A DNA stretch of 64,000 nucleotides from Chlamydiota bacterium. GTDB taxonomy: Bacteria; Auribacterota; Tritonobacteria; UBA1439. The DNA lies in NCBI GenBank assembly GCA_012729785.1, contig JAAYCL010000021.1:7876-71875 (forward strand). Reading direction: 5' to 3'. This document shows positions 20,992-37,798 of this stretch, piece after piece. The translations under genes were made by a program, and so were the position numbers. Each line of letters starts with the position of its first letter. Positions within the stretch are counted from its first letter, which is position 1. The notes beneath the pieces are model-generated. The model was not told where the DNA came from and did not search any database. It was given only the letters and a program-made list of their open reading frames with translations.

Positions 20992-22575
20992 ATGGTCGTC
21001 AACGCTGCGGCGATTACCGGCGCCGCGAGAAGCTACATCGAGGTCGTCTTCAGGCGCAAGTGGCTCTTCCTGGTGCCGGTGATCGTCTTCCTCTCCGTCG
21101 CAGTCGGCCTCGGCTTCGTGCTCCCCCCGCGGTACCGTTCCGAGGCCATCCTCGGCCTGAAGGAAGAACAGAGCGACAACCCCCACCTGAAGGGGGTTAC
21201 CGCGATCACCCCTGTCAAGGAACGTCTCCCGATGATCCGCGAGAAGCTCACCAGCCGCTCGCGACTGATCTCGGTGATCCGGAGCCTCGGCCTCGATGCC
21301 CAACTCAAGAACGAGTGGGGGATGGAGGAACTCATCGGTTCTTTGCGCAGGTCGATCGGCGTCGAGATGCGGCAGGGGGGGAACTTCTTCAGCATCTGGT
21401 GCGAGCACTTCGATCCGGTCACCTGCCAGAAGATCGCGGAACTGTTGACCGATCTGTTCATCAAGGAGAACCTCGACATCGAGAAGCGCGAGACGAGCAT
21501 CGGTATCGAGTTCCTCGAGAGCCAGCGGTCGATCTACCGGCAGAAGCTCGAGGAGTCCGAGAAGAACCTCACCACCTTTAAACAGGAAAACCAGCGCGTC
21601 CTCTCCATCGCCGCCGCGCGGGAGCTTGGCGAGAAGCTCGGCGTGAGCGATGCCGCGAACATCAACGTGCTGCGCTTCACCAACTACCAGGTGAACCTGA
21701 TCGAGTCGCGAATCAAGCTCCAGGAGCTCACCACGCACAGGGAGCAGCTCGTGCGGGAGCTCAAGCGGACGGACAAGTACGTCGTCGCGGAGCGGATCCA
21801 GGAGATCAACCCGATCGTCCGCGAGCTGAAGAAGACCCTCGTGGACAAGCGCATCGAGCTCCATAAGCTCAAGCTCGACTCCACGGAGAACCATCCGCTC
21901 GTCCAGCAGCTCCAGCAGCAGATAGAGAAGACGCAGGAGGAGCTGGAGAAGATGACCGAGGAGACGGTCAAGCAGGAGACGCGCGCCATCAACCCCAACT
22001 ACCAGCAGATCGAGCGCGAGATCGGCCAGACGGAGGCCGAGATCGCCTCCCTGAAGAAGCGCCTCGAGATCACCGAGCTGTACATGAAGGACTTCCACCG
22101 GGAGATCCAGCAGATCCCCGAGACGGAGCGCAAGATGACCGATCTGCAGCGGAGCTACGGCATCTACAACAAGCGCTTCCTCGACCTGACCGAGCGCCTC
22201 GAGACGGCCAGGATCACCGAACGGCTCGAGACGATCGAGAAGGGGGTGCGCTTCGAGATCTACGAGCGGCCCCGTGTGCCGATCCAGCCGTTCAAGCCGA
22301 ATCGCAAGGCGATCTCCCTCATCGGGCTCGTCTCGGGGATCTTCTTCGGGGGCGCCCTGGTCTTCATCGCCGAGGCGACCGACCACTCGTTCAGCGAGAT
22401 ATCGCAGCTGCGGGCGGCGATCGATCTCCCGGTCATCGGTTCGGTGAGCAGGATCCTGACCGTGGAGGAGGACGAGTTCAACAAGTCCAAGAAGCGGCTC
22501 GGCCTCGTGAGCCTGCTGGTCTTCATCATCTTTATTTTCCTCGGCGTGGTGGCGAAGTACATCCTCACCGCCTGA
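20992..22575 (+). CDS. Wzz/GumC-family chain-length determinant (polysaccharide co-polymerase)
   Basis: This 527-residue protein has a first membrane helix (~24-45), a Wzz domain, a long periplasmic coiled coil (~165-370) and the Pro-rich segment ERPRVPIQPFKPN. A second membrane helix follows (~435-455), with a third hydrophobic segment at the C-terminus. It controls polymer length and works with the BY-kinase encoded next. The kinase domain is not fused but encoded separately 24 bp downstream, as in Firmicutes CpsC/CpsD, although the size is that of GumC types. Confidence 0.9.
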   Translation: MVVNAAAITGAARSYIEVVFRRKWLFLVPVIVFLSVAVGLGFVLPPRYRSEAILGLKEEQSDNPHLKGVTAITPVKERLPMIREKLTSRSRLISVIRSLGLDAQLKNEWGMEELIGSLRRSIGVEMRQGGNFFSIWCEHFDPVTCQKIAELLTDLFIKENLDIEKRETSIGIEFLESQRSIYRQKLEESEKNLTTFKQENQRVLSIAAARELGEKLGVSDAANINVLRFTNYQVNLIESRIKLQELTTHREQLVRELKRTDKYVVAERIQEINPIVRELKKTLVDKRIELHKLKLDSTENHPLVQQLQQQIEKTQEELEKMTEETVKQETRAINPNYQQIEREIGQTEAEIASLKKRLEITELYMKDFHREIQQIPETERKMTDLQRSYGIYNKRFLDLTERLETARITERLETIEKGVRFEIYERPRVPIQPFKPNRKAISLIGLVSGIFFGGALVFIAEATDHSFSEISQLRAAIDLPVIGSVSRILTVEEDEFNKSKKRLGLVSLLVFIIFIFLGVVAKYILTA

Positions 22576-25384: not shown

Positions 25385-27229
25385 ATGGCCTTCCTGAAGA
25401 GAGGTGCGTGTCTTGCCGCCGTTCTGCTCGCCCTCGGCGCGGGCGTCGCGTTCCCGCTGAGTCTCCTCAGGCCGGGGGAGCCGCGCTTCAAGTTCAACCG
25501 GATCGTCGCCCCCGCCAAGGCGGAGGCGGGCGACCAGTTCAGGGTCCTCGCCTTTGTCACGCCTCTCCAGAACATCTGGGACGAGGAGCGGATCTTCTTG
25601 CACCTGCTCGAGTCCGACGCGGTGATGGACGAGTACCCCGCGGACGGGTGGGACCAGAAGGGGATCCTGGTAAACGCCAACGCCGCCCCGCAGATCCCCT
25701 CGCAGCGCTGGGTCGTGGGAGAGGACGTGCAGCTGGGGCCCGTGACCTTCGAGATCCCCCGCGGGCTCGCCCCCGGCACCTACCTGATCCAGATGGGGCT
25801 GTTTCATGTCGTCGATCCCGTCAAGCGGGTCTTCATGCGCGAACCGTACGCCAATCGGGAGATCAAGGACTGGATCGTCGGTTCGGTGGAGGTGACCGCC
25901 CCGCGGCGGATCGAGAACGGGAGCCGGGTCGAACTGCTGCTGAGCGACTTCGAGACCCTCGGGGACGTGAAGAAATGGGAGTCGGGCAGGCGCGGCGAGC
26001 TCGGACTCGTGGGCGGGGCGGAGGCCCTCAGCGGGGACTACTCGGGCTGCCTCGCGTTTCCGTCGAACACCTACCTCCCCATCGTGATGATGCAGAGCTT
26101 CTTCGAGAGCGCCCCTCCCGAGTACACCGACTGGGGGCAGTACGACTACCTCGAGTTTCTTTTCCAGGGCCAGTTCTCCCCCCGCGCCTACGACGGAAGC
26201 CACGTGTCGATCCAGATCAAGGACGCGGGCGGCGGAAGGTTCCAGCGCAGGCTCGACGAACTCGAGAGGGTGAACGTCGAGAGGGGGGCGCACGGCGACT
26301 GGGCGTCCGCGACGGAAAACGGCCCTACGCCTGTCGCCGGCCCGCAGACGCCCGTGCCCGCGCGCCGCGAAAACGCCTCCGCCCCCAACGGTTCGAACGG
26401 TTCCGCGTTCCGGATGCGTCTGCCGGTCGTCGATATCGCCACCCGGATCGATATCGGCAACATCGCCCACCTCGGATTCTGGGCGTCGGGGCTCCCCGAA
26501 CGGGAGGACTGGTTTCTCACCGCGGTCGTCGACGACATCAAGCTGGTGGCGGAGGAGGGGAGGAAGCCGGGCTGGTTCGACGAGCCGTTTGTGGTCTTCG
26601 AGAAGCTCAAATGCCCCGCGACCGCCGTCCCCGGAACGGCGATCAGGATGGAGGCCGCCTTCAGCCTCGCGCGCAAGTTCCGCCAGGATTACTCGCTCTT
26701 CATCCATGTCATCGGTGAGGAACCCCCGCACTACGCGATGCACGTCGAGCGCAGGCCGTTCCGCTCCACGACCACCTGGGAGGTCGGGCGCATGCACACG
26801 GAGGGCCCCCTCCACGTCCCCGTGCCGCAGGACGTTCCGCCGGGGAACTACTTCGTCAATGTCGGGCTCTTCAAGGTGCGCGATGAGTTGAACACGAATG
26901 CGCGCTACGTCAACACCTACCGCTGGTCCGACGGGGTCTACACCGAGGAGCAGCCGACACTCCCGGTGGACTACATCAAACAGCCGTACCTCAACCGCGA
27001 CTCCGCGCAGCAGTGGAGGGTGGGGAAGATCGCCATCGTTTCGCGGAAGGCGGAGAAATCCGCGCCGGCGATGGCCGCGGAGTCGCAGGAGATGGAGGAC
27101 CTCGTCAAGAGCACCGCATCCGGGATCCTCACGAAACCCGCCCCGAAGGGCGACAAGACACGCAACGTTCCGAGGCCGGTGAGGATCCCGCTCCGGAACG
27201 CCGGGCGAGAGGGGCCCGACGGTGACTAG
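25385..27229 (+). CDS. secreted protein with duplicated beta-sandwich domain, function unknown
   Basis: The 614-residue protein has a signal peptide (~1-23). Two related domains flank a central part. Domain 1 (~40-170) has FLHLLES, WVVGEDVQLGP, APGTYLIQMGLFHVVD and DWIVGSVEV. Domain 2 (~415-560) has FIHVIGE, WEVGRMHTEGP, PPGNYFVNVGLFKVRD and QWRVGKIAI. The middle (~180-400) looks like a carbohydrate-binding-type jelly roll (LLLSDFETLGDVKKWE, then FWASGLP near its end). No catalytic motif is seen. Similar domains occur at the ends of some GT39-like proteins. It may bind glycan at the surface; the function is unknown. Confidence 0.7.
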   Translation: MAFLKRGACLAAVLLALGAGVAFPLSLLRPGEPRFKFNRIVAPAKAEAGDQFRVLAFVTPLQNIWDEERIFLHLLESDAVMDEYPADGWDQKGILVNANAAPQIPSQRWVVGEDVQLGPVTFEIPRGLAPGTYLIQMGLFHVVDPVKRVFMREPYANREIKDWIVGSVEVTAPRRIENGSRVELLLSDFETLGDVKKWESGRRGELGLVGGAEALSGDYSGCLAFPSNTYLPIVMMQSFFESAPPEYTDWGQYDYLEFLFQGQFSPRAYDGSHVSIQIKDAGGGRFQRRLDELERVNVERGAHGDWASATENGPTPVAGPQTPVPARRENASAPNGSNGSAFRMRLPVVDIATRIDIGNIAHLGFWASGLPEREDWFLTAVVDDIKLVAEEGRKPGWFDEPFVVFEKLKCPATAVPGTAIRMEAAFSLARKFRQDYSLFIHVIGEEPPHYAMHVERRPFRSTTTWEVGRMHTEGPLHVPVPQDVPPGNYFVNVGLFKVRDELNTNARYVNTYRWSDGVYTEEQPTLPVDYIKQPYLNRDSAQQWRVGKIAIVSRKAEKSAPAMAAESQEMEDLVKSTASGILTKPAPKGDKTRNVPRPVRIPLRNAGREGPDGD

Positions 27230-27518: not shown

Positions 27519-28381
27519 TGCGCAAGCTGCTCCTCGCCGTCTCCGCATTCACCGCATATCTGTGCGCGGCGCTGGGAGCGGGGTTTGTCGACGCGTTCGT
27601 GCTCGAGCCGAACTGGCTCAAGATGGAACGCGTCACGGTCGCCAGCCCCGCCCTCGCCGCGTCGCTGGGCCCCCTCACCATCGCCCAGCTCTCCGACCTC
27701 CATCTCCGCGGCGCGTGCGGGTTTCTCGAGGAGCAGATCCTACGGACGCTCGCCCGCATCCGCCCCGACGTCTTGTTCTACACCGGCGACCTCGTGTCGC
27801 GCAGGGAGGCGCTCGAGGAGTTCTGGCGGTTCGCCCGTCGCGCCGCCCCCCGTCTCTGGAGTTACGCGATCCCGGGCGACGACGACGAGGCCCTCATCAA
27901 CGACCGGTGGCGCGACCCCGCATGGCGGAAGGCGGGGGTGGCGCTGTTGGTGAACGAGGTCGTGCCGCTGCGGCTTCCGGGCGGGGGAGACCGCGCCCTC
28001 TGGCTCGTCGGCGCGGGGCCCGACTTCCCCTGGGGGTCGTACCGCGACAAGATCCCCGAGGGGGAGGCGGTCCTCGTGCTCGCCCACCGTCCCGCCGAGA
28101 TAAAGCATGCGGCGATCCGCGGGGCGGGGATGGTCCTCTCCGGGGATACGCACGGGACCCAGCTCGGCATTCCGGCGCTGCGCCGGTTTTCGGCCTACGC
28201 GCGCCGGGGACCGTACATGGCCGGGCTCTACCGCGTCAAGGAAACCCTGCTCTACGTGAGCAGGGGGACGGGCTGGAAGGCCCGCCCGATCCGGTTCTTC
28301 TGCAGGCCCGAGCTCACCGTGTTCCGTTTCGTCTCCTCGGGCGCGACGAGCGAAATCACGGTCCTTCCCGGCGATGAATAG
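27518..28381 (+). CDS. metallophosphoesterase (YkuE-like) with altered metal-site motifs
   Basis: The 287-residue protein has an N-terminal signal or anchor and a calcineurin-like domain. Motif I (D60-L-H62) and motif II (G90-D91-L-V) are normal, and the motif IV His190 is present. Motif III GNHD reads GDDD (120-123), and motif V GHTHG reads GDTHG (209-213), replacing a metal-ligand Asn, a catalytic His and a metal-ligand His with Asp. YkuE-type enzymes cleave phosphoesters or UDP-diacylglucosamine-like lipids. Activity is uncertain here; the metal preference may have changed. It overlaps the deacetylase gene by 8 bp. Confidence 0.8.
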   Translation: MRKLLLAVSAFTAYLCAALGAGFVDAFVLEPNWLKMERVTVASPALAASLGPLTIAQLSDLHLRGACGFLEEQILRTLARIRPDVLFYTGDLVSRREALEEFWRFARRAAPRLWSYAIPGDDDEALINDRWRDPAWRKAGVALLVNEVVPLRLPGGGDRALWLVGAGPDFPWGSYRDKIPEGEAVLVLAHRPAEIKHAAIRGAGMVLSGDTHGTQLGIPALRRFSAYARRGPYMAGLYRVKETLLYVSRGTGWKARPIRFFCRPELTVFRFVSSGATSEITVLPGDE

Positions 28382-29177
28382 GCGCGCCAGTCCCATACTG
28401 CTCTACCATGGCGCCGAGGAGAGCGGCGACGCCATCCGCGACCCGCTTTACTCCCTCCCCCCCGCGCGTATCCGCGCGCAGATCGCCGCACTCCGGGAGG
28501 CCGGGTTCCGTTCCGTGACGCTCGGCGAATTCCTCGCCCGCGGCGGATACTGCGCCGGCGGCTGCGTGATCACCATCGACGACGGGCTCCTGAGCGCCGC
28601 CACGGTTCTCTTCCCGGCGCTTGCGGGAGCGGATCTCACGGCTGTCATCTTCCCGGTGGCGGGGATGGTCGGCCGCAAGGGATGGGTGGACTGGACCGCG
28701 CTCGCCGAGATGCGGCAGGCCGGATTCGAGGTGGGGTCGCACGGGATGACGCACGCCAGCCTGGCCGCCGCCTCGGCCCGCGAGGAACTCGCCGCGTCGA
28801 AACGGCGCATCGAGGACCGCCTCGGCGCGCCGGTGCAGTACCTCGCCCTGCCCGGGGGGTACCGGAGCCGCGCGACGGCGTCGTACGCCGCGGAGGCCGG
28901 CTACACGGCGATCTGCGGCTCCCGCTTCGGCTACAACAAGGTCCCCGCGGAGCCGATGGATCTGAAAAGGATCTGCCTGAAACGCGGGGACGGCCCCGAG
29001 GCTGCGGCGGTCTTCGCGGCGGGCAGACCAGGCAGGATCGCGGGGCGTTTCATGCGGGAACGGGGGAAGGAGATCGGCCGGGCGATCCTCGGCCCCAGGA
29101 TCTACGCTGCGCTGCGCGGGCGGCTCGTCCCCGAGGGCGCCTGCCGGTCGCTGCCGCGCTTCCCCCAAGACACGTGA
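28374..29177 (+). CDS. polysaccharide deacetylase (carbohydrate esterase 4)
   Basis: This 267-residue NodB-homology protein carries TIDDG (usually TFDDG) with the catalytic and metal Asp, and the metal motif HGMTH. The later LALPGGYRS segment matches the RxxxGxxx motif region. Such enzymes remove N-acetyl groups from hexosamine polymers. No signal peptide is evident, so it may act in the cytoplasm or on lipid-linked precursors. It starts inside the phosphoesterase gene (ATGAATAG), so it is translationally coupled, and ends the plus-strand run that faces the sugar transferase gene. Confidence 0.85.
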   Translation: MNRRASPILLYHGAEESGDAIRDPLYSLPPARIRAQIAALREAGFRSVTLGEFLARGGYCAGGCVITIDDGLLSAATVLFPALAGADLTAVIFPVAGMVGRKGWVDWTALAEMRQAGFEVGSHGMTHASLAAASAREELAASKRRIEDRLGAPVQYLALPGGYRSRATASYAAEAGYTAICGSRFGYNKVPAEPMDLKRICLKRGDGPEAAAVFAAGRPGRIAGRFMRERGKEIGRAILGPRIYAALRGRLVPEGACRSLPRFPQDT

Positions 29178-29202: not shown

Positions 29203-30657
29203 TCAGATGCCGCGCCCGCCGAGCATCACGACGATCGTCCTGAGCATGATCCAGAGATCGAGCAGGAGCGACATGTTCTCTATGTAGTAGAGGTCGCTCA
29301 CGAGCTTCTCGGCGTTGGATTCGATGGTCGATGCGTACTGCAGATTCACCTGCGACCAGCCGGTGATGCCCGGCTTCACCTCGAGGCGTTCGGTGTAGAA
29401 CGGCATGCACCGGATGAGCGAGCGCACGAAGTGCGGGCGCTCCGGCCGCGGCCCCACGATGCTCATCTCCCCCTTCAGCACGTTGAAGAACTGCGGAAGC
29501 TCGTCGAGGTGCGTCCGGCGGAGGAACCGTCCGAAACCGTTCACGCGGGCGTCGTCGGGCGCGGCCCAGACCGGGCCGGTGTTCTTCTCGGAGTCGACGG
29601 TCATCGTGCGGAACTTGAGCATCGTGAACGGCCGGCAGTGGAGTCCCGCGCGCTCCTGCATGTGCAGGATCGGGCCTCGCGAGGTGAGGCGTACGATCAG
29701 GGCGATCGGCAGCATCAGCAGCGGACCGGCGACGGCGATCACGGCGAGCGAGAAGGCGATGTCGAGCACCCGCTTGAAGCCGTGGTACCAGCCGCGCCCA
29801 TAGCGCGCGAAGGTGAGTTCGATGAGCGGGATGTTTTTCGCGGCGGCGGTCGCGGCCACCCTGCCGACCACCGCCTCGTACAGGTCGGGGACCGTTTTGA
29901 ATATGATGTCGGTGTTGATGAAGTAGGAGAATATCTCCGCCACCCGCTCGCGCGGAAGGTCCGGCGACGAGATGACCGCCTCGTCCACCGGCCGGCTGGA
30001 TATGATCGAGGGGAGGTCCTCCACCGTCCCCAGGATCATCTCCCGGTCGACCTCCGGTTCGTTCCCGTCGGTGGCGATGTAGCCGACGAGTTCGGTCTTG
30101 ATCCCCGCCCGGCGGGTCATCTGGAGCATCAGCCGCAGGGCGCTCCGGTCGGTGCCGACGATGAGGAGGTGGGAGACGAAGTAGTTGTGGCCCACCAGGA
30201 TATTGATCGCGCGCCGGACCAGCAGCCGCCAGCCGGTGATGAACGCGGCGGTGAGCAGCCAGGATATGAGGATGACCGTGCGCGGGTAGGCGAACGACTG
30301 GGAGAAATAGGCGACGGCGATGATGAACAGGGTGCTCACCGTCATCGCCTTCGCGATGTTCGTGACATTCTCGAAAACGGTTTTGTACTTGGGCTTCTCG
30401 TACAGGCCGAAGACGTAGAGGCAGATCAGGCGGAGCAGCACCACGAACACCGCGATCCGCCAGTAGGCCTTGAAGTTCTCCTCGCGCACGTCGATGCCGT
30501 AGCGCAAGGAGAAGGAGAGAAGATCGGCGAGGACGATCAGGGTGGCGTCGATCACCACCGCGGCGCCCACGATGGATCTCAGGGGAAGCACACGTCTCGC
30601 GGAAGCCCCCCCCCCGCCAGCCACGGCCCGGGATTCCACAGGAGGCGCGATGTTCAT
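29203..30657 (-). CDS. polyprenyl-phosphate sugar phosphotransferase (initiating glycosyltransferase)
   Basis: The 484-residue protein of the WbaP/WcaJ/PssY type has four to five N-terminal membrane segments, a Rossmann-like middle domain (~130-270) and the C-terminal bacterial sugar transferase domain (~290-484). The latter includes KRVLDIAFSLAVI, MLKFRTM, RTHLDELPQFFNVLKGEMS, GPRPERP and KPGITGW. It loads the first sugar phosphate onto undecaprenyl phosphate and so starts exopolysaccharide repeat synthesis. It is coupled to the coiled-coil gene by an ATGA overlap and shares its consensus promoter. Confidence 0.95.
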   Translation of the reverse strand: MNIAPPVESRAVAGGGGASARRVLPLRSIVGAAVVIDATLIVLADLLSFSLRYGIDVREENFKAYWRIAVFVVLLRLICLYVFGLYEKPKYKTVFENVTNIAKAMTVSTLFIIAVAYFSQSFAYPRTVILISWLLTAAFITGWRLLVRRAINILVGHNYFVSHLLIVGTDRSALRLMLQMTRRAGIKTELVGYIATDGNEPEVDREMILGTVEDLPSIISSRPVDEAVISSPDLPRERVAEIFSYFINTDIIFKTVPDLYEAVVGRVAATAAAKNIPLIELTFARYGRGWYHGFKRVLDIAFSLAVIAVAGPLLMLPIALIVRLTSRGPILHMQERAGLHCRPFTMLKFRTMTVDSEKNTGPVWAAPDDARVNGFGRFLRRTHLDELPQFFNVLKGEMSIVGPRPERPHFVRSLIRCMPFYTERLEVKPGITGWSQVNLQYASTIESNAEKLVSDLYYIENMSLLLDLWIMLRTIVVMLGGRGI

Positions 30658-31779: not shown

Positions 31780-32763
31780 GTGGCGGACTGGGGCGGGATA
31801 CGCGGGATCATCGACGCCGGCCGGCGTTTCGTCGTGACCAGCCACGTCTACCCCGACGGGGACGCGATCGGGTCCACGCTCGCCATGCTCCGGCTTCTCC
31901 GGGCCATGGGCCGGAGCGCGACGGGCGTCATGCCGTCCCCGGTCCCGGACACCTACCGGTTTCTCCCCGGCGCGCAGGCGCTGCGGAGCTACCGGCCCGT
32001 CCACGACGCCGTCCTCGGCGCCGCCGACGCCCTCTTCGTGCTCGACGCCAGCACCAACGACCGGCTCGGGGCGCTCGACGAGGCGTCGCGCCGTCTCCGG
32101 GTGCCGAGGGTCTGCATCGATCACCACCCCGGCAATACCGTCGACGCGGAGACGCGCCTGGTGGATACCGGAGCCTGCTCGACCGCGCAGCTCATCTACG
32201 AGCTCTACGAAGCGTGCGGGCAGACGATCGACCGGTCCTCGGCGCTCGCCCTCTACACCGGCATCCACACCGACACGGTGTCGTTCAATTTCCTCGGGAC
32301 CGACGCCGTCACGCACGAGATCGCTGCGGTGCTCCTCCGGCAAGGGGTCGACCCGAAATCGGCGTGGCTGAAGATCTACGGGAACGAATCCCCGGCGCTC
32401 CTGAGGCTCGCGGGAGCCACCCTGTCGGGGCTCCAAACCGCCGCGGGGGGGCGTATCGCATGGATGGCAATCCGCGAGCGGGATTGGCGGCGGCTGCGCG
32501 TCGACCCCAGGGCCACCGAGTCGTTCACTCGCTACCCGCTCACGATACGCGGGGTGGGGGTCATCGTCGTCTTCTGCGAGGAGGAGAGGACGCGCGTGCG
32601 GGTCAGCCTCCGGGCGCTCGACCGGACCGACGTGGGTGCCGTCGCGCGTCTGTTCGACGGGGGGGGGCACCGGACCTCGGCGGGGGCGCTGATCTATGCC
32701 CCGCTCGGCACGGTGGTTCGGAGGGTCATCGGCGCGCTCCGCCGGAGCAAGGGGGGACGATGA
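31780..32763 (+). CDS. DHH/DHHA1 phosphoesterase (NrnA-like nanoRNase/pAp phosphatase)
   Basis: The 327-residue protein starts at GTG 31780 behind GGAGGGGGA. It has the DHH motifs SHVYPDGDAIGS, the Asp in FVLDAST, and DHHPGN, and a C-terminal DHHA1 domain ending in GGGHRTSAG. NrnA-type enzymes degrade short RNA oligonucleotides and dephosphorylate 3'-phosphoadenosine 5'-phosphate; some members act on cyclic dinucleotides. It is divergent from the coiled-coil gene and overlaps the next gene's ATGATG start. Confidence 0.9.
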   Translation: MADWGGIRGIIDAGRRFVVTSHVYPDGDAIGSTLAMLRLLRAMGRSATGVMPSPVPDTYRFLPGAQALRSYRPVHDAVLGAADALFVLDASTNDRLGALDEASRRLRVPRVCIDHHPGNTVDAETRLVDTGACSTAQLIYELYEACGQTIDRSSALALYTGIHTDTVSFNFLGTDAVTHEIAAVLLRQGVDPKSAWLKIYGNESPALLRLAGATLSGLQTAAGGRIAWMAIRERDWRRLRVDPRATESFTRYPLTIRGVGVIVVFCEEERTRVRVSLRALDRTDVGAVARLFDGGGHRTSAGALIYAPLGTVVRRVIGALRRSKGGR

Positions 32764-34520
32764 TGCGCGTGCGCGGCGGCAAGGCGGCTTCCTCGGAAAC
32801 CGCCCGTTGGGAACGCCTGATCTTGTGGGGGATCGTCGTGTTGGCGGTCGTCCTCCGCGCCTGGGGGCTCTCCCATCAGCTGCCCGACAAGACCTATATC
32901 GAGGAGGACGAGTTCATCTATACCGCCTTGAAATACGGGTCGGGGGATCCCAACCCGCACTGGTTCTTCCATCCCCCGCTTTACAGCTACCTCCTCTTCG
33001 CCCTGTACGGTGCCTACTATCTCCTCGGCGCGGCGGCGGGCTGGTTCCGCGGCGCGGAGGAGTTCATCCTTCAGTACCTGGTCGACCCGAGCGCCTTCTA
33101 CATCATCGCGCGCGGCCTGAGCGTCCTCCTCTCCGTCCCCGCGGTGCTGCTCCTCCACCGGTTCGGCAGAAACGTCTGCTCGCCGCGTGTCGGCCTCGCC
33201 GCCTGCCTCCTCTTCGCCGTGATGCCCCTCGGCGTCAAGTACGCGCACTACGGCTGCACCGAGCCGCTGCTCCTGTGCCTTGTCCTCGCCGCCGCCGTCT
33301 GCGCGGCGCGGGCCCTCCAGACGGGCCGGGTCCGCCCGCTGCTCGCCGCGGGGGCGTTCGCGGGCGCGGCGATGGGGACGAAGTACACCGGGGCCTTCGC
33401 ACTCGCCCTCGTCGCCGCGGCGGTCCCGCCCCCGACGCGGGTCTCCTCCTGGGCCGCCCTGCTCGGGGCCTTCGCCGCGGCGGGCGCCGCCTTCCTCCTC
33501 GTCTGCCCCTTCCCGATCCTCGCGCCGCAGGAGTTCGCGGCGAACGTCTCCCTCCTCGCGTCCCAGCCGCTCCAGGTGGGCGAGTACAGCTGGCAGCGGA
33601 TCCCGAACCTGTATCTGGAGTTCGCCCGCCGCCATATGCCCGTCGGGATGACCGCGCCGCTCGCCTGGATCTCCCTCGCGGGCACCGTGTTCCTCTGGCT
33701 GCGGCACCGGCGCGAGGATATCCTGGTCGCGGCCCTCCCGACGGCCTTCTACCTCGTCATCGGGCGCTCGCGCCTTTTCTACGACCGGTATATGCTCGTC
33801 TGCTACCCGTTCTTCGCCCTCGCGGCCGCGGCGCTGCTCGACGCGGCGGCTGCGCGCGCCGCCGGACTCCTCGCCCCGGCAGCGGCCCGGCCGCGGCGGG
33901 CGGCGGCCCTCCTCGCGGCGGCGGCCGTCGCGCTTGCCCTCGGCGGCGCCGGGGCCAGCGCCCGTCTCGTCCGGCTGATGGTCCTGCCCGAGACCCGGTT
34001 CCTCGCGGCGCGCTGGATCGAGGAGCACCTCCCCGCGGAGGCGAGAATCCTCGCCGACGACGCCCCCGTGCCCCAGACGGAGGAGAGCGTCCGGCGCGAG
34101 CAGCGCCTGAAGGAGCGGGAGCCCCGGCAGGAGTTCGGCTACCGGGAAAAGACGGGGCTCTACTTCGATCTGCAACGGCGCGCGGCCCGCGGGCGCCGCG
34201 GGTTCGACGTCACGCGGATACTGCACCCCCGCGGCTTCCATATGCTCGGCGGGGGCAGGGGGTACGAGGAGGAGTGGATGACGCCGGAGCGGATGAAGGC
34301 GCAGCTCGAGTCGATCGACGACTACGACTACGTGCTCGCCTCCTCGACCGGCGCCTACCGCTACCGGGCGCGTGAAATCCTCCCGGAGCGGTTCAGGTTT
34401 TTACACGACTTCTACGCCGGGCTGGCGGGGAGGGGGACGGTCGTGAAGGTCTTCCGGCCCGAGCCGTCGCGTTCCACGGGGCCCGAGTACACGCTCTACC
34501 GGGTGGGGGAGGGGCGCTGA
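32760..34520 (+). CDS. GT-C fold glycosyltransferase, family 39-like
   Basis: The 586-residue protein has ten or more membrane helices and a soluble C-terminal tail (~410-586). The first loop has the acidic motif IEEDEFIY, followed by HPPLYSYLL. This matches PMT/ArnT-like enzymes, in which an Asp/Glu pair in this loop is catalytic. Its start ATGATG (32760) overlaps the stop of the DHH gene, so the two are coupled. It probably transfers a sugar from polyprenyl phosphate on the outer face of the inner membrane. The acceptor is unknown. Confidence 0.85.
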   Translation: MMRVRGGKAASSETARWERLILWGIVVLAVVLRAWGLSHQLPDKTYIEEDEFIYTALKYGSGDPNPHWFFHPPLYSYLLFALYGAYYLLGAAAGWFRGAEEFILQYLVDPSAFYIIARGLSVLLSVPAVLLLHRFGRNVCSPRVGLAACLLFAVMPLGVKYAHYGCTEPLLLCLVLAAAVCAARALQTGRVRPLLAAGAFAGAAMGTKYTGAFALALVAAAVPPPTRVSSWAALLGAFAAAGAAFLLVCPFPILAPQEFAANVSLLASQPLQVGEYSWQRIPNLYLEFARRHMPVGMTAPLAWISLAGTVFLWLRHRREDILVAALPTAFYLVIGRSRLFYDRYMLVCYPFFALAAAALLDAAAARAAGLLAPAAARPRRAAALLAAAAVALALGGAGASARLVRLMVLPETRFLAARWIEEHLPAEARILADDAPVPQTEESVRREQRLKEREPRQEFGYREKTGLYFDLQRRAARGRRGFDVTRILHPRGFHMLGGGRGYEEEWMTPERMKAQLESIDDYDYVLASSTGAYRYRAREILPERFRFLHDFYAGLAGRGTVVKVFRPEPSRSTGPEYTLYRVGEGR

Positions 34521-34530
34521 GGCGGGCGGC

Positions 34531-37500
34531 TCACTCCGCCGGGACGGGCGCCGGTTCAGGCGCATCGCCGCGCGCCCCCCGCTCCCACGGCACGCCCGGC
34601 AATCCCCAGCCCGACCCCTCGTCTGAACGGATCGTTGCCGATGCCGCGTCGGACCTGTCGCTGACGAGCCCCGCAGCGTCGATCGCGGAGACGCGGTAGG
34701 TGCAGGAGGTTCCCGCCGCCGCGGTGCGGTCCTCGAACGAGGTGCCGGAGACCCTGCCCACCTTCTCCTCTCCGGCGAGCGGGTTCCACCCGCTCCTGCG
34801 GTAGATCTCGTAGCCGGCGATGTCGGGTTCCGGGCTGGGGGTCCAGGAGAGCGCGATCAGGTCGCCGCGGGCCTCGGCGTTGAGGTTCACGGGAGCGGAC
34901 GGCCGCGGCTTCGTCGCCGCCTCGACCTGCTCAGAGGGGGGGCTGACCAGCCCCTCCACGTCGACCGCGCAAACCTCGTACCGGTAGGGTACGCCGTCTT
35001 CCAGGCCGCTGTCGGTGTAGCCGGGTGTTCGAACCTCTCCCGCAACCGAGGACGCCCCGCGGCGGAGGCGGCGGACCGTGTAACGCGCGATGTCGGGTTC
35101 GGGGTTGGGGGCCCATACGAGCCGAACGCTCCGAGGGAGCCCCGACTCGGCCTTCAGGCCCTGCGGCCTGGAGGGGAGGGGCCTCGTGGCGGCGGAAACG
35201 GTCTCCGAGAAGCCGCTCAGAAGCCCGTCCCGGTCGACTGCGCGGACCCGGTAGAAGCGGACGGTCCTGTCCCCGAGGCCCGCGTGAACGAATGAGGGCG
35301 GGGCGGTTTCGGCGATCTGCCTGAACGGTCCATCCCCGCTCTCCGAGACGAAGACGCGGTAGGCGGCGATGTCGGCCTCGGGATTGCGGTCCCAGACGAG
35401 CGGCACGCGGCGCGCCCTGCCCCCCTCGGCCGCGAGGCCCCGCGGCGCGGACGGGGCGCGCTTGGTGACCGCCTTCACGGGCGCGGTCATGGCGCTCGAG
35501 AGCTTGTCGGCGTCGATTGCCTCGATCGTGTAGTAGTAGGCGGTGTCGTCCTCCAGCCCGGTGTCGGTGTGGGAGGGACCCGTGAGCCATCCCGGTTTCA
35601 CGCTGGCGATCTCCCGGTAGGGGCCCGACTCCGAGCCGCTGCGGTGGATGCGGTACTCCCGGATATCCTTCTCCTTCGGCGGGCCCCACTCGAGCCGCAC
35701 CCTGCGTGCGAGCCCCCCCTGGGCGCAGAACCCCGCCGGCGGCGAGGGGGGCGGCTTCGCGCCGGCGGCGAATTCGACCGACGGCTCGCTTTCGAGCCCG
35801 TTGCGGTACCGCTTGACGACCCGGTAGTAGCGCGTCTCCCCGTTCGCGAGCCCCTTCTCAAAGAAGCCGGGCGTGCGGCTTTCGCCCGCCCGCACGTACT
35901 CCCCGCCGGGCGAGGCGGCGCGGTAGATCGCGTAGCCGACGACGCCCTCCTCTTCCTCCGCCCACGAGAAGGAGCTGGCCCCGACCGCGGTCTGCCGCCG
36001 CACGCGGAGCTCGCCGATCGCCGGCCTGCCGCGGGTGCGGACGGGGGCGGCGGCGCACGGCGGCGATTCCCTCCCGTCCGTGTCGACGGCCGTCAGTCGA
36101 TAGAAGAGGGCGGCGCCGTCGGCGAGGCCGCGGTCGATCCAGTCCGTCTTCTCCGTCTCTCCGACGACGGCGTACGGCCCCCCCTCTGCCTCGGCGCGGT
36201 GGATGCGGTACCCTTTGAGGTCGGGTTCGGCGTTGGGACGCCAAGAGAGCGACGCCTCGCGCACGCCGCCGGTGGTCGCGAGGCCGGCCGGGGGCGCCGG
36301 CGCGTGGAATTGGATGAGGTAGGCGCCCTCGATCCTGCGCACCTCCCGCTCGACCGCCTCCCGGAGGCGGGCCTCCGCGACGACCTTGAGGGCGTCGGGG
36401 AGGATCACCTTCCCCGTCTCGACGTCGAGCAGCCTCAGATCGACCTCGATGGCGCCCCCGAAGAAGGAGACCCCGCCCGCGAGGGCGACGTCGACCCCGA
36501 GCACCCTCCCCAGCTTCTTGGTCGTCTCCTCGTCCACCGCGCCGGACTGGCCGAAGTAGAGCTCGTCGAGGAGCTTCCGGATCTGCTTTCGCTCCACCAC
36601 CTCGAAGTTGGGCCTCCGGGCGAAGGCGGTGATGAACATCTCGGAGATCGTCTCGCCGTAGCCGCGTTCCCTCGCCGGGGGGTTGTTGTTCTTGAAGTCG
36701 AAGACCGCGATCCGGAGCGGCTTCTCGAGGCGGGCGACCGGGGCCTCCTCGACCCTCGGGACGGCGAGGGAGAAGATCTGCACGCGGCGGTTGCCGCGAT
36801 CCGCCACGCAGACGAGGCCGTTGGGGCCGGTCCCGACGCCCTGCGGTTCCCTGAACTGTCCGCGCCCCTTCCCTCGCCCCCCGACGGCGGCGAGGAAGCG
36901 GCCCTGGGGGTCGAAGAACTGGACCGCGTTGTTCTTCTCGTCCGAGACGCAGACGATCCCCATCGCCCCCACGGCGATCCCGGACGGTTTCTCGAATCTC
37001 CCGGGCCCTTTGCCGCGCCCGCCGAAACTGAACAGGTAGGCCTGCTGGGGGGTGTAGGCGTGCACGGCGCGCGTCCCCGAGTCGAGGACGTAGATGAGGC
37101 CGTCGACTCCGACGGCGACATCCTCGATGCGCGTGAACCGGGGCCAGGCGACGAATCGGATGGGGCCGCTCGTGCGCGAGATGTCGATCTTGTCGACGGC
37201 CTTGGGGCCCGAGACGATCTGCCCGATGAACGTCCCGTCGGCGTCGAATCTCTGCACGCGGTTGTTGCCCCGATCGGCCGCGTAGACCCTCCCGGCGTCG
37301 TCGACGGCGACCCCGACGGGGTCGCGGAAGCGGCCCGGGGCGCTCCCCTTGCCGCCTATCTTCGCCGCGAGGGTGCCGGTTTGGTCGTGGATGCAGATCG
37401 AACGGTTCCGTGAGTCCGAGATGTAGAGGCGCCCCGCCCTGTCCGTCGCCACCGCCGAGGGGCGGGGGAAGGTGCTGCTCCAGAACCGTTTCTCCCCGAT

Positions 37501-37761
37501 GGAGAGGATCGGTCTCCCTTCGGCGTCGAACAGATATGCCTTGTGCGTGGATGCGTCGAGGACACAGATATTCCCGGCGGCGTCCGCCGCGGCGTCCACG
37601 AGCGATTTCCACGCCGGGTCGGAGAGCTCGCGCTGGTAGACCACCCCCCGGAGCGTCACCGGGTAGGCGGGCGGGCCGGGGAGGAGATGGAACTGCGGCG
37701 TGGAGCATCCTGCGGCGAGGAGGGCGATACCGACACCGGCGCCGAGAAGTCGGTTTTTCAT
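34531..37761 (-). CDS. large lipoprotein: NHL propeller, CsgG-like domain, six FN3 domains
   Basis: The 1,076-residue protein has a lipobox (LLAAGC). Residues ~40-335 form an NHL-type beta-propeller with repeats such as PVGVAVDDAGRVYAADRGNNRVQRF. Residues ~350-480 are CsgG/FlgO-like (IAVFDFKNNN, then SEMFITAFARRPNFEVVERKQ and LGVDVALAGGVS). Six fibronectin type III domains follow (~490-1050) with repeated EPDIxxYxVxR cores. The first ATG (37773) lies inside the -10 box, so ATG 37761, at the predicted transcription start, is preferred. Its function is unknown; it is probably a surface or periplasmic assembly platform. It converges on the GT-C gene. Confidence 0.85.
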   Translation of the reverse strand: MKNRLLGAGVGIALLAAGCSTPQFHLLPGPPAYPVTLRGVVYQRELSDPAWKSLVDAAADAAGNICVLDASTHKAYLFDAEGRPILSIGEKRFWSSTFPRPSAVATDRAGRLYISDSRNRSICIHDQTGTLAAKIGGKGSAPGRFRDPVGVAVDDAGRVYAADRGNNRVQRFDADGTFIGQIVSGPKAVDKIDISRTSGPIRFVAWPRFTRIEDVAVGVDGLIYVLDSGTRAVHAYTPQQAYLFSFGGRGKGPGRFEKPSGIAVGAMGIVCVSDEKNNAVQFFDPQGRFLAAVGGRGKGRGQFREPQGVGTGPNGLVCVADRGNRRVQIFSLAVPRVEEAPVARLEKPLRIAVFDFKNNNPPARERGYGETISEMFITAFARRPNFEVVERKQIRKLLDELYFGQSGAVDEETTKKLGRVLGVDVALAGGVSFFGGAIEVDLRLLDVETGKVILPDALKVVAEARLREAVEREVRRIEGAYLIQFHAPAPPAGLATTGGVREASLSWRPNAEPDLKGYRIHRAEAEGGPYAVVGETEKTDWIDRGLADGAALFYRLTAVDTDGRESPPCAAAPVRTRGRPAIGELRVRRQTAVGASSFSWAEEEEGVVGYAIYRAASPGGEYVRAGESRTPGFFEKGLANGETRYYRVVKRYRNGLESEPSVEFAAGAKPPPSPPAGFCAQGGLARRVRLEWGPPKEKDIREYRIHRSGSESGPYREIASVKPGWLTGPSHTDTGLEDDTAYYYTIEAIDADKLSSAMTAPVKAVTKRAPSAPRGLAAEGGRARRVPLVWDRNPEADIAAYRVFVSESGDGPFRQIAETAPPSFVHAGLGDRTVRFYRVRAVDRDGLLSGFSETVSAATRPLPSRPQGLKAESGLPRSVRLVWAPNPEPDIARYTVRRLRRGASSVAGEVRTPGYTDSGLEDGVPYRYEVCAVDVEGLVSPPSEQVEAATKPRPSAPVNLNAEARGDLIALSWTPSPEPDIAGYEIYRRSGWNPLAGEEKVGRVSGTSFEDRTAAAGTSCTYRVSAIDAAGLVSDRSDAASATIRSDEGSGWGLPGVPWERGARGDAPEPAPVPAE

Positions 37762-37768
37762 CCGCACA

Positions 37769-37798
37769 AGCATACACCGTCGGAACAGGGCCGGTCAA
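37769..37798 (-). promoter_or_regulatory. promoter of the NHL-CsgG-FN3 gene, predicted leaderless
   Basis: On the minus strand, TTGACC (37798-37793) and TATGCT (37774-37769) are 18 bp apart. The start falls at about 37762, so ATG 37761 would be at the very 5' end of the mRNA. Confidence 0.55.

Follow-up and report, generated by a model that had tools for sequence, protein, structure and literature searches.

The gene described here lies on the minus strand of a 64,000-nucleotide stretch of DNA from Candidatus Auribacterota (hereafter, the window) and encodes a protein of 1076 amino acids, in which a signal peptide with lipobox is followed by an NHL beta-propeller, a compact domain of the CsgG superfamily and six FN3 domains (Table 1). 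The open reading frame contains no internal stops and runs over 34531..37773 from the first ATG or to 37761 from the second, the latter start being backed by the orthologue alignment. Matches to Pfam were judged against the gathering cut-off of each family, and NHL, CsgG (cut-off 20.8) and fn3 (80.3 bits) all exceeded theirs. A full-length AlphaFold model built from eight orthologues (mean pLDDT 77) contains six four-stranded propeller blades, the last of which is closed by the N-terminal strand, and six FN3 sandwiches predicted with high confidence between residues 487 and 1046. Propeller and FN3 matches prevailed in a fold search with the whole model. The propeller corresponds to the NHL domains of Thin, TRIM71 and TRIM2 (target-normalised TM-score 0.85–0.90), and no PD40 match was found in it with Pfam, the blades being of the NHL type. 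Reading frame, profile scores and models together bear out the order of lipobox, NHL repeats, CsgG-superfamily domain and six FN3 domains given in the first-pass annotation. The tail beyond the last FN3 domain is presumably disordered, judging from the model. Elsewhere in the same genome (G000:C44:23000-41000), several NHL-repeat matches fall in two large frames of 1979 and 963 amino acids.

Table 1. Features of the gene and of its surroundings, in window coordinates
Feature	Residues	Position	Strand	Basis or remark
Whole gene: signal peptide/lipobox, NHL propeller, CsgG/TolB_N-like domain, six FN3	1076 aa	34531..37761	minus	ORF, Pfam, AlphaFold models
Signal peptide and lipobox LLAAGC	1-19 (Cys19)	37705..37761	minus	Sequence; kept in family-f1 orthologues
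Six-bladed NHL beta-propeller	40-332	36766..37644	minus	Pfam NHL 105.6 bits; pLDDT mostly about 90
Compact CsgG-superfamily (TolB_N/LpoB-like) domain	346-482	36316..36726	minus	Pfam CsgG 48.5 bits, best stretch 9-102/210; fold matches
FN3 domain 1	487-576	36034..36303	minus	Pfam, AlphaFold
FN3 domain 2	578-669	35755..36030	minus	AlphaFold
FN3 domain 3	670-768	35458..35754	minus	AlphaFold
FN3 domain 4	769-861	35179..35457	minus	AlphaFold
FN3 domain 5	862-952	34906..35178	minus	Pfam best stretch 864-947; AlphaFold
FN3 domain 6	953-1046	34624..34905	minus	AlphaFold
C-terminal tail	1047-1076	34534..34623	minus	AlphaFold model (pLDDT about 30); missing in orthologues (alignment)
PMT_2 glycosyltransferase gene		32760-34520	plus	Convergent neighbour
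Wzz protein		20992-22575		Window neighbour, family f1 setting
614-aa ORF		25385-27229		No Pfam match at E 1e-5
Polysaccharide deacetylase		28374-29177		Window neighbour, family f1 setting
Sugar transferase		29203-30657		Window neighbour, family f1 setting

The gene stands alone, with thrS divergent on one side and the PMT_2 glycosyltransferase gene convergent on the other, the ends of the two convergent genes being about 10 bases apart; the convergent geometry toward the polysaccharide region was thus described correctly in the first pass. Within the family of the window's genome (f1), the gene is placed between a gene for a DHH protein (with or without the PMT_2 glycosyltransferase) and thrS wherever the contig reaches, with the sugar transferase nearby; the glycosyltransferase is missing in one genome (G004). 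The orthologues of two further families (f8 and f11) have other neighbours, and no polysaccharide genes were seen beside them as far as the contigs reach, so that the claimed adjacency to the polysaccharide region stands for f1 and fails for f8 and f11. In G027 the orthologue is adjoined by genes for a LysM protein, Pal, a response regulator, an FHA protein, ExbB/TolQ and ExbD/TolR (L047:8232-11665), a neighbourhood that is absent in its family mate G012 and was seen in one genome only. A function read from the operon or neighbours was rejected, because the neighbours are kept only in f1 and the Pal/ExbB arrangement is a single case. The 614-aa frame listed in Table 1 has a counterpart of 53% identity in G003, where the gene order is the same.

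Orthologues and phylogeny

Full-length orthologues with the same domain order were identified in three Auribacterota families (five of the six f1 genomes, both of f8 and the single one of f11), and none in the other searched genomes of the phylum. The f1 genome that lacks the gene (G001) is 80% complete. NHL, CsgG and fn3 are matched by Pfam in all eight orthologues. The cysteine equivalent to Cys19 is kept in all five f1 orthologues (the window's own counted) and not reliably in more distant ones, which indicates that lipid anchoring is no general feature of the protein. The search for the same architecture in other genomes, suggested at the first pass, also returned a shorter version in a spirochaete group: a 735-amino acid protein of G069 (from the phylum of a Brevinematales genome) composed of NHL, CsgG-like, two FN3 and bacterial SH3 domains. 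In G056, of the same phylum, apparently the same gene is cut by two contig ends.

In a tree of CsgG-like domains, all those linked to NHL propellers form one group (support 97/97), with the spirochaete-group pair inside this clade next to G020, the exact placement of these long branches being less sure. A single origin of the fusion, followed by inheritance or transfer, is the simplest reading of the tree and a probable one, since the NHL-linked domains of both groups make up a single clade. Compact CsgG-like domains combined with HEAT, TPR, FN3 or kinase parts occur in the same phyla, likewise in multidomain proteins that mostly carry a signal sequence, but these have other partners and fall outside the NHL-linked clade.

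Several of these relatives have unusual arrangements of their own. The closest compact domains of family f7 (L050:8095-9102 and L051:202-1191) appear from their sequence to be fused to HEAT-like repeats, directly before a radical-SAM-type gene; given this setting, f7 was rejected as a split-gene version of the protein. Judged by eye, a protein of G080 in the spirochaete group (L116:1803-3641) seems to have a compact CsgG-like domain at its C-terminus, fused to a PorV-like outer-membrane barrel and carboxypeptidase-regulatory-like domains, and a serine/threonine-kinase-like protein of G026 (L088:580-3177; by eye and domain HMM) carries TPRs and a C-terminal domain of the same kind.

The CsgG-like domain is 65–67% identical within f1 and 43% identical to f8, compared with 26–40% to f8 for the propeller and individual FN3 domains. 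In both comparisons no other part of the protein is as well conserved, which suggests that this domain is the functional core; the same does not hold for G020 (32% versus 28–40%). A literature search for the combination of NHL, CsgG-like and FN3 domains found no described system, in agreement with the first impression that it was unfamiliar. The architecture is real and conserved, apparently uncharacterised, and belongs to a known superfamily.

A compact domain of the CsgG superfamily

In the full-length model the CsgG-like domain is poorly predicted (pLDDT mostly 28–59); modelled alone with 24 rows of relatives, it reached a pLDDT of 85.5 and a pTM of 0.80. The isolated domain was matched by the CsgG, LpoB, TolB_N and FlgO profile models. 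Under half of the CsgG model is covered (about positions 10–101 of 210), versus nearly all of TolB_N (11–104 of 106, at 18.6 bits against a cut-off of 22.4) and more than 60% each of LpoB (21.0 bits, under the cut-off of 22.3) and FlgO (19–118 of 130). FlgO is also matched in seven of the eight orthologues with Pfam.

The highest score in the fold search with the domain model was for FlgT (Z 15.4), followed by the N-terminal domain of TolB (Z 13–14, rmsd 2.6–4.6 over 115–130 residues), PelC (Z 12.0, rmsd 2.6 over 114 residues), GNA1162 (Z 11.7), LpoB (Z 11.6), PelBC (Z 10.9) and the HpaA adhesin of Helicobacter (Z 10.2). The core of CsgG aligns with Z of about 10–12 and rmsd of 4.5–5.5. The domain of LpoB has been noted to resemble the N-terminal domain of TolB (PMC7267771), and CsgG and TolB_N are grouped in one Pfam clan (PMC3173608). 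The domain search proposed as a check at the first pass thus did return a CsgG-like match, in profile and in fold. The term 'CsgG-like' here denotes membership of the superfamily to the exclusion of CsgG itself: the domain is of the compact TolB_N/LpoB/FlgT/PelC form, without the transmembrane inserts of CsgG. The outer-membrane secretion or assembly function that the name had suggested in the first-pass annotation is not supported for such a domain.

The inserts of CsgG reportedly form its transmembrane barrel, as seen in a structure of 2014. Two conserved motifs are separated by 30 residues in the window protein and by 57 in the CsgG of the PDB (a weak alignment, with the same two motifs), and the domain is modelled with a tight turn at the site of the first insert. 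After the TG motif only about 37 residues, modelled as a strand and a helix, precede the first FN3 domain, which leaves no space for a second insert. The full-length CsgG-family proteins of the compared genomes have a glycine-rich insert at the first-insert site, and the genome of the window encodes a separate full-length member of 476 amino acids, which matches the CsgG model over positions 9–207. A CsgG-type pore is very unlikely for the window protein, as the profile matches well only to about position 101 and the barrel-forming inserts are missing, and it was ruled out on the latter ground. CsgG, the curli secretion channel, shares with it the core fold, the Pfam match and, in f1, the lipobox; the inserts are found only in CsgG and the fusion to propeller and FN3 domains only in the window protein. 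No curli genes of the CsgA, CsgB, CsgE or CsgF type were found among the scanned neighbours.

The 476-amino acid protein (L048:6523-7953, on G000:C37) has a barrel-type insert and no lipobox. Two further secreted-looking proteins are encoded upstream of it on the same strand, and it has close relatives in G001 (L095) and G003 (L090).

Candidate roles in the envelope

TolB of the Tol-Pal system and the window protein are both exported, and each has a six-bladed propeller together with a TolB_N-type domain. In the window protein, however, the propeller comes first, its blades are of the NHL and not the TolB type, and there are in addition a lipobox and six FN3 domains; the score against the TolB equivalog (TIGR02800) is 16–21 bits, with a cut-off of 343. 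FlgT and FlgO are associated with the outer membrane at the flagellum, and FlgT provides the best structural match, but the f1 hosts lack flagellin: no match was obtained in the six f1 genomes, that of the window included, whereas f8 and f11 have flagellin. A flagellar role was rejected for f1 on this ground. LpoB, the activator of PBP1B, is a lipoprotein with a domain of similar size and the same fold; it carries a disordered linker and has neither a propeller nor FN3 domains. UB2H was not found above the cut-off of 27 bits in the genome of the window; the best score (19.8 bits over 40 positions) was for a 1091-amino acid frame that is probably Mfd. With neither flagellin nor a convincing UB2H domain in the genome of the window, a flagellar role or one of the classical LpoB type becomes less likely. 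PelC, of exopolysaccharide export, is likewise an outer-membrane lipoprotein with a compact domain of the same fold, but consists of this single domain.

Our leading reading, held tentatively and at somewhat short of even confidence, is that the protein is an envelope scaffold that in f1 would be lipid-anchored in the outer membrane and face the periplasm, unlike a CsgG pore. The NHL propeller and the adjacent compact domain would together form a docking unit near the membrane, which may bind partners from the outer-membrane or peptidoglycan machinery, and the six FN3 domains would form an arm reaching into the periplasm. The mode of working would resemble that of TolB, LpoB or PelC, as a lipid-anchored or periplasmic docking module. 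The periplasmic side is favoured because the compact relatives of known function among the fold matches are mostly periplasmic or periplasm-facing, HpaA of Helicobacter being a possible exception. Bacterial SH3 domains often bind the cell wall; a role linked to the cell wall would be consistent with the SH3 end of the spirochaete-group version and with the one Pal/ExbB neighbourhood, neither of which proves it.

As strings of FN3 domains are often found in secreted and surface-exposed proteins too, the protein could be a surface lipoprotein or adhesin in which propeller and FN3 domains bind polysaccharide or a surface and the TolB_N-like domain serves as an anchor module. NHL domains are likewise frequent in surface proteins, the gene stays beside polysaccharide genes within f1, and HpaA, an adhesin, is among the fold matches. 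Yet most of the compact TolB_N-type relatives in the same list face the periplasm, and the polysaccharide genes are not retained beside the f8 and f11 orthologues, as far as the contigs extend; we consider an adhesin possible but unlikely.

It is improbable that the protein is an accessory of exopolysaccharide export akin to PelC, with compact domains that ring the periplasmic side of a polysaccharide porin in the outer membrane. The fold matches to PelC and PelBC would fit such a role, as would the f1 neighbours (the Wzz protein, polysaccharide deacetylase, sugar transferase and PMT_2 glycosyltransferase), but this neighbourhood does not persist in f8 and f11, with the glycosyltransferase missing even within f1, and PelC has no counterpart of the propeller and FN3 arms.

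A replacement for TolB that docks Pal, with the two module types of TolB swapped, would draw on those shared modules and on the Pal and ExbB/ExbD genes adjacent in G027. A TolB match nevertheless coexists in the genome of the window (342.6 bits, just below the cut-off of 343.15), and a full match is present in every other genome with the full-length gene except G002 (best 28.7 bits); in G027 it lies on a different contig from the orthologue. TolB, Pal and the gene of interest are on separate contigs of the window's genome (C11, C39 and C21, respectively), and the propeller is of the NHL type, without a PD40 match. The replacement was rejected for this genome, where the canonical match coexists, and is highly improbable overall. 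A CsgG-type secretion channel or assembly platform, to which the significant Pfam match and the aligned fold core had pointed, is barely credible in view of the missing inserts, the short motif spacing, the tight turn and the insert present in full-length family members, one of them from the same genome.

The envelope scaffold that we tentatively favour might, in a more specific and rather doubtful version, be a distinct hub in which the two module types of TolB are reversed and extended by an FN3 arm, which arose once, is common to Auribacterota and spirochaetes, and would, beside an ordinary Tol-Pal system, connect peptidoglycan or other machinery with the outer membrane.

A CsgG match in Pfam can mean a compact docking domain of the TolB_N/LpoB type and not a secretion pore, and a simple test for the inserts is whether the match extends beyond about position 102 of PF03783. 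For the uncultivated phylum Candidatus Auribacterota, the gene provides a conserved and testable envelope protein, which also occurs in a spirochaete group.
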